Source: Bordetella parapertussis
Lineage (GTDB): Bacteria; Pseudomonadota; Gammaproteobacteria; Burkholderiales; Burkholderiaceae_C
Assembly: GCA_945888535.1 (NCBI GenBank)
Contig: CAMDAN010000005.1
Span: 1-50,206, forward strand
DNA length: 50,206 nucleotides
Direction: 5' to 3'
The notes under the pieces are model-generated. The model was not told the DNA's origin and searched no databases. It saw only the letters and a list, made by a program, of their open reading frames with translations. The stretch's first letter is position 1, and each line of letters opens with the position of its first letter. Of the stretch, positions 43,392 through 46,309 are shown piece by piece. A program made the position numbers and the translations under genes.

Positions 43392-44015
43392 ATGTACATG
43401 CCCGCCCAATTCGACAGCAAAGACATCGCAGTAGCAGTGCAGGTGATGCGCAGCCATCCTTTTGCCAGTCTGATTTCGATTGACGATGCTGGTTTGCCTT
43501 TTGTGACCCATTTGCCCTTGCATTGGGAGGAAACGAAAGACGCTGAGCATGGTCGTTTGCTTGGGCACTGCGCCCGAGGCAATCCGCATTGGAAATTTCT
43601 TACAGCCCGGCCTAAGGCGGTCGTTACCTTTATGGGGCCCCATGCCTATATGTCGCCCAAGGTTTACCCCGACCTCGTGCGGGTGCCAACCTGGAACTAT
43701 GTAGCTGTGCACTGCACAGTAGAGGCAGAAATTTTGGACGGCCACGCAGCCAAGGATGCGCTGCTTAAGCAATTAATCGCCGACCACGAGCCCGCCTACG
43801 CTGACCAATGGCGAGCGCTTCCAGAAGATTACACGGGGAAAATGCTCAACGGTATTGTTGCTTTCTCATTGAAAATCATTGAGTTACAGTGTAAAGTTAA
43901 AGTGAATCAACACCGTCCTGAGGCTCACGGTCGCATGTTGGAGATCTATGACGCGGGCAGTCCGGATGAAAAAGCGCTGGGCCAATGGATGCGCCAAATG
44001 GGTTTGAATGCCTGA
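43392..44015 (+). CDS. FMN-binding PaiB-family protein
   Basis: The 207-residue protein matches PaiB, a split-barrel flavin-binding family annotated as negative transcriptional regulators in Bacillus. Family text: MYMPAQFDSKD, HPFASLISIDDAGLPFVTHLPL, GHCARGNPHWKFL, VTFMGPHAYMSPKVYP, VPTWNYVAVHC and the C-terminal LNGIVAFSLKIIELQCKVKVNQHRPEAHGRM. No DNA-binding domain is visible, so an enzymatic or redox role is equally possible. TAGAAT ends 6 bp before the ATG and no Shine-Dalgarno is present (possible leaderless mRNA). Its last 8 bp overlap the tadA fusion start. Confidence 0.87.
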   Translation: MYMPAQFDSKDIAVAVQVMRSHPFASLISIDDAGLPFVTHLPLHWEETKDAEHGRLLGHCARGNPHWKFLTARPKAVVTFMGPHAYMSPKVYPDLVRVPTWNYVAVHCTVEAEILDGHAAKDALLKQLIADHEPAYADQWRALPEDYTGKMLNGIVAFSLKIIELQCKVKVNQHRPEAHGRMLEIYDAGSPDEKALGQWMRQMGLNA

Positions 44016-45387
44016 AACTTCGCTGCCTGATACGCACTGGATGCGCCTGGCGTTAGCGCAAGCGGCTCTCGCAGCACAGGCCGGAGAAGTTCCCGTTGGG
44101 GCAGTCGTCGTTAAAAATGGCGCGCTAATTGCTGTGGGCCACAACGCGCCCATTGGTCGGCAAGACCCCACGGCCCACGCAGAAATTGCCGCGTTACGGG
44201 CGGCGGCAAAAGCATTGGGAAACTACCGCCTAGACGGCTGCGAATTGTTTGTAACTTTGGAGCCGTGTGCCATGTGCGCTGGCGCAATGCTCCATGCGCG
44301 GCTGAAGCGCGTGGTTTTTGGCGCTCCCGAACCCCGAACGGGCGCGGCAGGTTCCGTCTTGAATTTATTCACCCCATCGGATTTAAACCACCAAACCGAA
44401 GTCTTAGGCGGAGTTCTCGCGTCGGAGTGCGCTGCCGTTATGCATGATTTTTTTAAGCCGAAGAGGGTGACAGCGAACCCAGTGCGCGAAGACGCCTTGC
44501 GAACTCCCGAGGATTGCTTTGCCAACATGTCGGACTATCCTTGGCAACCCAATTACTTAAGTGACTTGCCCGCCTTGGATGGTTTGCGCATGCATTACCT
44601 GGATGAGGGCCCCCCTGACGCAGCGACAACTTACGTGTGTTTGCATGGCAACCCGGCGTGGAGTTACCTGTACCGCAAGATGATTCCTGTTTTTGCTGGG
44701 GCAGGGCAGCGCGTGATTGCGCCTGATCTGATCGGTTTTGGGAAAAGCGACAAGCCCAAAAAAGACAGCGCCCATACCTTTGCCTTTCACCGCCAGGTCT
44801 TGCTTGAGTTCATTGAACGATTGAACTTACGCAACATCGTTTTGGTGGCTCAAGACTGGGGCGGTATTTTGGGTTTGACCTTGCCCATGGCAGCGCCCGA
44901 GCGATTTTCTGGCTTGCTGGTAATGAATACCATGCTCGCTACGGGGGATGTGCCTTTGTCGCCCGGGTTTGTCGCGTGGCGCGGTTGGTGTGAGAAAAAC
45001 TCTGAGTTTGATGTGGGTCGTTTATTGGCGCGGGGTAATCCGCAAATGACTGAAGAAGAATGGCAAGCCTATAACGCGCCGTTTCCTGACCGAGGCCACC
45101 GGGCCGCTTTGCGTGCGTTTCCTAAGCTAGTCCCTGAAAATACGACTGACGACGGTGCGGCGCTTTCCCGCTCGGCCCGTGACTTTTGGCTTAATGACTG
45201 GACTGGAAAAAGCTTCATGGCGATTGGCCAACAAGATCCCGTTTTGGGTGAACCGGTCATGCGCCACTTGCAAAGTCAGATCAGGAGTTGTTCAGAGGTT
45301 CTTGTTTTGCCGCAGGCCGGTCACTTTGTTCAAGAGCATGGTGAGTCGATTGCAAAAGCGGCCTTGGATATTTTTAATCCAAGATAA
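44008..45387 (+). CDS. tadA: TadA tRNA adenosine deaminase fused to a haloalkane dehalogenase-like hydrolase
   Basis: The 459-residue product joins two complete proteins. Residues 1-155 are TadA, which deaminates A34 of tRNA-Arg(ACG) to inosine: zinc ligands H57-A-E59 and P86-C-A-M-C90 are present, with ARLKRVVFGAPEPRTGAAGS. Residues about 175-459 are an alpha/beta hydrolase of the haloalkane dehalogenase I type: HGNP (213-216), nucleophile D283 with halide Trp W284 (QDWGG), second Trp W324 (GFVAWRGW, aligning by eye with W175 of DhlA), acid D410 and base H439. No stop or frameshift is seen between them. A Met174 codon (ATG at 44527) with GAGGAT about 13 bp upstream could start the hydrolase alone. 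It overlaps paiB upstream and is 13 bp before ldcA. Confidence 0.88.
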   Translation: MPETSLPDTHWMRLALAQAALAAQAGEVPVGAVVVKNGALIAVGHNAPIGRQDPTAHAEIAALRAAAKALGNYRLDGCELFVTLEPCAMCAGAMLHARLKRVVFGAPEPRTGAAGSVLNLFTPSDLNHQTEVLGGVLASECAAVMHDFFKPKRVTANPVREDALRTPEDCFANMSDYPWQPNYLSDLPALDGLRMHYLDEGPPDAATTYVCLHGNPAWSYLYRKMIPVFAGAGQRVIAPDLIGFGKSDKPKKDSAHTFAFHRQVLLEFIERLNLRNIVLVAQDWGGILGLTLPMAAPERFSGLLVMNTMLATGDVPLSPGFVAWRGWCEKNSEFDVGRLLARGNPQMTEEEWQAYNAPFPDRGHRAALRAFPKLVPENTTDDGAALSRSARDFWLNDWTGKSFMAIGQQDPVLGEPVMRHLQSQIRSCSEVLVLPQAGHFVQEHGESIAKAALDIFNPR

Positions 45388-45400
45388 TAGAGCGATTGCT

Positions 45401-46309
45401 ATGAGTCACATCTACATTTACTCACCCTCCAGCGCCGTCCGAGACAAGCCTGCTTTTCGCCGTGGTATCCAAAGGCTTCGCGCTTTGGGTCACGAAGTGG
45501 AGGTAGATGCCGATGCTTTGACCTCTTCCCAGCGGTTTGCGGGCGACGATGCCACTCGGATTACTGCGATTTCCCGGGCCGCCAACAGCGGGGCCGACGT
45601 CTCGCTCATTTCCCGTGGGGGGTATGGCTTAACGCGATTGCTTCCTGCGTTGCCCTACACCCAGATTTCAAAAGCTATTGATCAAGGTATGCAATTTGTA
45701 GGATTGAGTGACTTTACGGCTTTTCAGTTGGCGGTTCTTGCCAAAACTGGCGCAATCACTTGGCAAGGTCCCGCCTTGGGTGAAGATTTTGGCTCGGTCG
45801 AACCGCCCGATGAGATTATGCAAGCCTGTTTTGACGATTTGCTGCAAGAGCAGGGCGAAGGCGCAGGGTGGCGTTTAAGTAAAGACCAGAGCGACCTGGA
45901 GCTGAACATCCTTAACGCTAAGTTGTGGGGTGGGAATTTATCGGTCTTGGTGTCGATGTTGGGAACACCGTATTTTCCGAAAATCAAAGGCGGTATCTTG
46001 TTTCTTGAAGATGTGGGTGAACACCCATATAGGATTGAGAGAATGCTGACGCATTTGCTTCACTCAGGCGTTTTAGCCCAGCAAAAAGCGATTGTCTTGG
46101 GCCAATTCACGAACTACAAATTGGTACCGCACGACAAAGGATTTAAGTTGTCGAGCGTCGTCGCTTGGCTTAGATCTCAGGTGAAAGTTCCTGTCCTAAC
46201 CGATTTACCCTTAGGCCATGTCGCAACCAAAGTGTTGCTGCCGGTGGGAGCGAAAGTGGACTTAGCCTGCCAAGATAGAGATGCGCTCTTGGTTTGGGGG
46301 CACATTTGA
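45401..46309 (+). CDS. ldcA: Muramoyltetrapeptide (LD-)carboxypeptidase LdcA, family S66
   Basis: LdcA removes the terminal D-Ala from recycled murein tetrapeptides in the cytoplasm. The 302-residue product shows the S66 family motifs: IYIYSPSSAVRDKPAF, ISRGGYGLTRLLPAL, the nucleophile S103 in FVGLSDFTAFQLAV, the Glu in GGILFLEDVGEHPYRIERML and the His in LPLGHVATKV. The frame is open to 45155, inside the upstream gene, but the ATG at 45401 fits the family. It has no signal peptide. It converges on the ankyrin gene. Confidence 0.9.
   Translation: MSHIYIYSPSSAVRDKPAFRRGIQRLRALGHEVEVDADALTSSQRFAGDDATRITAISRAANSGADVSLISRGGYGLTRLLPALPYTQISKAIDQGMQFVGLSDFTAFQLAVLAKTGAITWQGPALGEDFGSVEPPDEIMQACFDDLLQEQGEGAGWRLSKDQSDLELNILNAKLWGGNLSVLVSMLGTPYFPKIKGGILFLEDVGEHPYRIERMLTHLLHSGVLAQQKAIVLGQFTNYKLVPHDKGFKLSSVVAWLRSQVKVPVLTDLPLGHVATKVLLPVGAKVDLACQDRDALLVWGHI

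Follow-up and report, generated by a model that had tools for sequence, protein, structure and literature searches.

Subfamily I haloalkane dehalogenases (HLDs) such as DhlA, DppA and DpaA (PDB 1b6g, 2xt0 and 7avr) are single-domain enzymes, and ordinary bacterial TadA, the tRNA adenosine deaminase (PDB 1z3a and 2b3j), ends near residue 150–210 in all of 27 unfused loci except L237. Here we describe a gene that joins the two, at positions 44008–45387 of the forward strand of contig CAMDAN010000005.1 (assembly GCA_945888535.1, Bordetella parapertussis); the whole stretch analyzed, 50,206 nt, is referred to as the window. One half of its product is the same deaminase as bacterial TadA, with the HAE and PCxxC motifs, and the other corresponds to a whole DhlA-type enzyme at ~50% identity, sharing its nucleophile, catalytic acid, His, and pair of Trp residues. 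Unlike DhlA, DppA and DpaA, however, the window enzyme is the tail of a TadA, has N215 in place of their Glu, and carries K251/K252 and G363 as new residues.

Two other deaminases offer partial parallels. Like the TadA–HLD fusion, Streptococcus pyogenes TadA has an extension at its C-terminus, and the authors suggest that it may help in tRNA binding (PMC11472039). In eukaryotic ADAT2/ADAT3, a TadA-type deaminase relies on an added non-catalytic domain, the N-terminal domain of ADAT3, for tRNA handling (PMC8216470). The added domain is unrelated to the HLD tail, N-terminal, and located on the inactive sister subunit, making this comparison an analogy only. The S. pyogenes extension is presumably short and free of any enzyme domain, unlike the HLD tail. 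We found no description of a TadA–HLD fusion among the open-licence PMC articles that our searches listed. What is new here is the repeated catalytic erosion of a TadA-fused HLD in which two stretches are still kept.

The fused gene and its relatives

The gene is a single ATG-started frame of 459 codons, and both parent families in NCBIfam scored above their cut-offs in its 459-aa product: TadA (PRK10860) at 188.9 bits against 150 and haloalkane dehalogenase (PRK00870) at 330.4 bits against 265. The in-frame join proposed in the initial annotation therefore stands. By family matches and motif, residues 1–153 (44008–44466) form the TadA part, with zinc ligands H57, E59, C87, and C90. A short junction, residues 154–163 (44467–44496), leads to the HLD part at residues 164–459 (44497–45384), a complete DhlA-type enzyme by its PRK00870 match, its alignment with 2xt0 and 1b6g, and its predicted structure. 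Because alignment to DppA and DhlA extended from query residue 162–164 to 456 and began at their residue 3–4, the window protein contains the whole dehalogenase.

The catalytic residues named in the initial annotation were all where it had placed them, the HLD ones aligning with those of DhlA and DppA. D283 and W284 (44854–44859) aligned with D124 and W125 of DhlA (DhlA numbers by offset), W324 (44977–44979) with DhlA W175, and D410 (45235–45237) and H439 (45322–45324) with the catalytic acid and His, giving the triad of subfamily I. W125 and W175 we take to be the two halide-binding tryptophans of DhlA, so W284 and W324 supply the halide-site pair. The Glu of subfamily I is missing, the position of DhlA E56 being occupied by Asn215. 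Asn stands there in 111/113 intact proteins of the main fused clade (defined below), and among 20 stand-alone sequences two have Asn and two Gln; since some stand-alone sequences differ likewise, we do not treat this substitution as excluding membership in subfamily I.

The AlphaFold2 model of the window protein (58 relatives) had a mean predicted local distance difference test score (pLDDT) of 90.6 and a predicted template modeling score (pTM) of 0.67. Its HLD half superposed on 2xt0 with a template modeling (TM) score of 0.97 and a root-mean-square deviation of 1.1, and TM scores to 7avr and 2xt0 spanned 0.95–0.97. The ratio of non-synonymous to synonymous divergence (dN/dS) in the HLD part was 0.14 against the fused relative L001 and 0.09 against L002. 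In 4 of 5 related genomes, TadA was matched nowhere but in the fusion, an indirect hint that it makes inosine 34 in tRNA-Arg(ACG). The window encodes a TadA with a tethered, probably active dehalogenase. We infer that the TadA half would deaminate A34 of tRNA-Arg(ACG) and that the tail would hydrolyze a halogenated or similar small substrate via D283, H439, and D410; the two halves would then share a tether, not a pathway.

Whether databases already held this fusion had been left open, and they do, filed as TadA. Nearly all of the best 120 protein matches were full-length fusions with 71%–95% identity, and fused relatives, where named, are called tRNA adenosine deaminase (TadA) only. At least 7994 of 7999 scored candidates passed 1e-20, weaker relatives included. 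A near-complete fusion was encoded at all 80 of the best 80 among 214 genome loci with a relative; titles among these 80 include Limnohabitans, Hydrogenophaga, Polaromonas, Rhodoferax, Ramlibacter, and Caenimonas, and the nearest is a Burkholderiales metagenome-assembled genome (MAG) with 93% identity. Chance or a sequencing or assembly artefact is ruled out, with the same fusion present in many independent assemblies at 71%–95% identity. Three loci titled Sulfuritalea, Akkermansia, and Gammaproteobacteria (L002, L053, and L076) also encode a Comamonadaceae-type fusion, and these are probably mislabeled or mixed MAG bins.

In a sample of the family of one Polaromonas, 171/299 genomes had a match at 1e-70, some of these being stand-alone dehalogenases. 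A hand count of the best 150 rows gave 75 near-full-length fused proteins, 64 fused proteins matching in their first part only, and 11 stand-alone HLDs. Phylum-wide, 13/299 genomes matched at 1e-75, seven with fusions, each of which the order sample already contained, and six with stand-alone HLDs, at a threshold of the kind that may miss heavily eroded fusions: L249 escaped detection at 1e-70 and came to light by accident. About four of 30 genomes checked were uninformative, among them G310 and G350, in which TadA had no match at 1e-25.

Erosion and constraint in the dehalogenase tail

We aligned 188 distinct fused proteins, a non-random set made up of the best 80 genome loci and further genomes, with low-scoring rows picked deliberately. 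It omits genomes G363 and G570, which have a stop inside, and ~24 near-full-length rows; proteins shorter than 300 aa were excluded, which removed just two, the TadA-only loci L116 and L117. The zinc motif of TadA was kept in 188/188. Of the five catalytic residues of the tail, by contrast, all were kept in 115 proteins, one or two were lost in 8, and at least three were lost in 65, although 115 vs. 65 gives no population share because of the deliberate inclusion of low-scoring rows. The number of eroded proteins depends on the definition: 71 by the triad, 73 by the triad plus W284, and 65 by loss of at least three of the five. Proteins with an intact triad were 430–479 aa long, and the 71 without it had a median of 385 aa (range 335–535). 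No aligned eroded protein was reduced to TadA alone, the shortest of the 188 having 335 aa. The longest eroded frame, L149 with 535 aa, continues beyond the normal stop position into the region of the next gene, as would follow a frameshift close to where the HLD part ends.

Heavily eroded tails were found in Comamonas phosphati, C. suwonensis, C. kerstersii, C. terrigena, a Diaphorobacter sp., Alicycliphilus denitrificans (358 aa), and Acidovorax sp. JHL-9 (364 aa). W284 alone was lost in Delftia and in Comamonas composti, which hence do not belong to this class, and A. carolinensis lacked D283 and W284. All five sites were intact in A. soli, Hydrogenophaga laconesensis, and one Curvibacter MAG. 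Active-looking, point-damaged, and dismantled tails therefore coexist in related species, even within proteins labeled Acidovorax. With their catalytic residues lost and the tail persisting under uneven constraint, the eroded relatives look like pseudoenzymes that their fusion partner may retain; the window protein is not one of them.

This erosion occurred repeatedly. On a tree of TadA plus LdcA, the product of the neighboring gene described below, heavy erosion vs. intactness took 13 state changes over 108 rows, four of them forced by starred (well-supported) branches, and counting all 73 eroded rows also gave 13 changes, five forced, all on a quick tree with support by the Shimodaira–Hasegawa-like approximate likelihood ratio test (SH-aLRT) only. 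A TadA-only tree, with 24 changes, was set aside as poorly supported.

Loss was not uniform along the tail. In eroded proteins, two stretches, PDLxGFGxSDKPKK and APFPDxGHRA, were about as constrained as TadA. The first covers residues 236–262 (PDLIGFGKSDKPKK; 44713–44793) and includes K251 and K252; the second covers residues 355–375 (APFPDRGHRAALRA; 45070–45132) and includes G363. Their dN/dS in eroded pairs was 0.24 and 0.28, respectively, and the segments between kept stretches drifted at 0.52–0.73, with per-segment numbers of eroded pairs of 5 for residues 313–354, 28 for 355–375, and 22 for 376–459. Intact tails were strongly constrained throughout (0.04–0.17, 52 pairs). Pairs were chosen by TadA distance rather than by tree, and grouping by triad placed L102 and L182 among the intact proteins. 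K251 and G363 were present in 65/65 heavily eroded proteins and in 0/22 outside the main clade. Together with K/R252, these residues are fusion-specific and older than the erosion.

Origin of the fusion and its products

An ldcA-like gene (LD-carboxypeptidase, Pfam S66; 45401–46309, forward strand) lies directly downstream of the fused gene. On the same strand and no more than 600 nt away, such a gene followed the tadA frame in 174/188 fused loci; in three more it lay just beyond these limits, and the other 11 show none, some of them at contig ends. Among the 27 unfused tadA loci, it was within the same limits in 16, further off in one, and not seen in 10. Because this adjacency also exists in unfused genomes, the dehalogenase entered between tadA and ldcA. 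No HLD match was found in the 27 unfused tadA loci, and no LdcA match or TadA frame in 18 stand-alone HLD loci, setting aside a dehalogenase gene that ancestrally adjoined either neighbor.

When loci with LdcA were compared, the main fused clade made up a single branch (SH-aLRT 96; 52 fused rows vs. 19 others), and by this tree the main fusion is one old event in a large Comamonadaceae clade of many genera. This breadth contradicts the earlier suggestion that the tadA stop was lost recently. Two further fused loci, L092 and L093, fell outside the main clade in the HLD tree, where a single clade of fusions was rejected (approximately unbiased test, p-AU = 0.0005), and the TadA+LdcA tree likewise rejected a single clade including them (p-AU = 0.0145). 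They probably represent a second, independent capture at the same spot. However, a single clade was no longer rejected in the HLD tree once stand-alone L098 and L109 were counted in (p = 0.257), with which a single capture with later splits may be compatible.

Some observations on individual loci stand apart from these trees. Between the window and L001, synonymous divergence (dS) was 0.445 in TadA and 0.168 in the HLD part, a difference that recombination at the junction may have caused. The unfused exception L237 (genome G200, 1033–2505) continues in frame from TadA into a different tail, GNAT acetyltransferase-like by eye only; the same genome also has the stand-alone HLD L098, which is close to the fused clade.

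The initial annotation also proposed that a free hydrolase is made from an internal start, and this was right in kind but not in place. The suggested start, Met174 (44527–44529), was rejected: it sits inside the N-terminal homology to DhlA, which begins at residue 162, and its column has Met in only 1/186 main-clade relatives. Instead, a Met lay within the eight residues before P158 in 57/112 intact but 0/73 eroded main-clade proteins, and in 10/24 vs. 0/53 after thinning at 75% identity, contrasts whose p-values are overstated because the rows are related and the eroded proteins poor in Met. A Shine–Dalgarno (SD) core preceded 23/62 junction ATGs of intact genes compared to 99/1293 other in-frame ATGs, and L092 and L093 have GAGGAG-type sites with an in-frame ATG at the HLD start. 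From this we infer that many intact species also produce free dehalogenase. The window itself has no junction Met: at codon 156 (44473–44475), it and L001 have GCG where their close relatives L003, L005–L007, and L009–L011 have ATG, and the fusion is therefore probably the main product there.

Competing accounts of the retained tail

We favor, with moderate confidence, an account in which the window carries a captured, live dehalogenase and part of the tail has become an accessory of TadA in the main clade. TadA would long ago have captured a DhlA-type dehalogenase, and part of the tail would then have gained non-catalytic value alongside catalysis, most likely by serving as a scaffold or contacting tRNA through the basic KPKK stretch, which is specific to the fusion, and the GHRA segment. 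Where the dehalogenase was no longer needed, the catalytic residues, cap, and junction Met would have been lost, leaving a small cap-less remnant. The earlier idea that the hydrolase was tethered for a new role thus gains indirect support, as part of the tail outlives catalysis in several lineages. Our confidence is no higher because Delftia is only lightly damaged and forced erosions number four, not five, under heavy loss. A more specific version is a fair possibility that we advance tentatively: the hydrolase became a tRNA-binding or dimer-stabilizing module before losing its chemistry, KPKK/GHRA contacts tRNA or TadA, and several lineages then dismantled the dehalogenase around the module.

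Several results weigh against our favored account. In stretch 1, most of the kept residues (D240, G243, G245, S247, D248, and P250) do not vary in stand-alone enzymes either, so a plain folding need could explain their retention. When the tree was widened, the unfused loci L226, L227, L232, L235, and L238 grouped with the main clade on a single starred branch that showed no order inside, so the tail may also be lost completely. Each half of the window model is well predicted, but their mutual placement is unsure, and models of an eroded relative reached a pTM of 0.56 with pLDDT falling from 75.4 to 47.2 over five models. One of the five related genomes has a second, more distant deaminase. Given the lower Met share of eroded than intact proteins (1.3% vs. 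2.7%), chance alone would put a junction Met in ~10% of the eroded ones, not in none. Start-plus-SD matches were also frequent in one of seven control windows (0.59 of intact).

The main rival to an accessory role is a ratchet, in which the coupling was accidental and the remnant persists solely because TadA would suffer from an unfolded tail, selecting for a mini-hydrolase that still folds. The overlap of kept residues with those invariant in stand-alone enzymes, the still compact, hydrolase-like fold of the eroded model, and the drift between kept segments would all fit. Yet K251, K/R252, and G363 are fusion-specific and predate the erosion, and early stop codons would have offered an easy escape that none of the 188 proteins took below 335 aa. 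These three residues lead us to lean towards function, and we consider the ratchet less likely. We judge it less probable still that the dehalogenase, both fused and free from an internal start, was the only selected function of the tail, with eroded tails as decaying relics. Constraint along the whole of intact tails fits this, as do the loss of the junction Met with erosion and the SD sites at junction ATGs and in L092 and L093, but relics would not hold two stretches at TadA-like constraint with K251 and G363 in every heavily eroded protein, and the window itself lacks the junction ATG. To a recent stop loss or assembly artefact in the window genome, with a free hydrolase from Met174, we give almost no credence: Met174 is indeed present in the window, but the identical architecture recurs in many independent assemblies, and a start at that nearly unique Met would cut off the conserved beginning of the HLD.

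The annotation “TadA” hides a second enzyme, or its ruin, so that a set of dehalogenases and what may be a new TadA architecture both go unnoticed. Intact, damaged, and dismantled tails side by side make the conversion of an enzyme into a non-catalytic part, by function or by ratchet, directly testable. If the module version is true, nature has repeatedly run the experiment of making an enzyme into a component of an RNA-modifying one. TadA is the parent of adenine base editors, and 6vpc was among the PDB matches of the window protein; a natural tail that alters RNA handling by TadA would be of practical interest for such editors.

Upstream, the last 8 nt of a gene with an FMN_bind_2 domain (PF04299; 43392–44015) overlap the beginning of the fused tadA, making translational coupling possible. 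A TctC-type solute receptor gene (PF03401; 42228–43223, minus strand) adjoins the locus.
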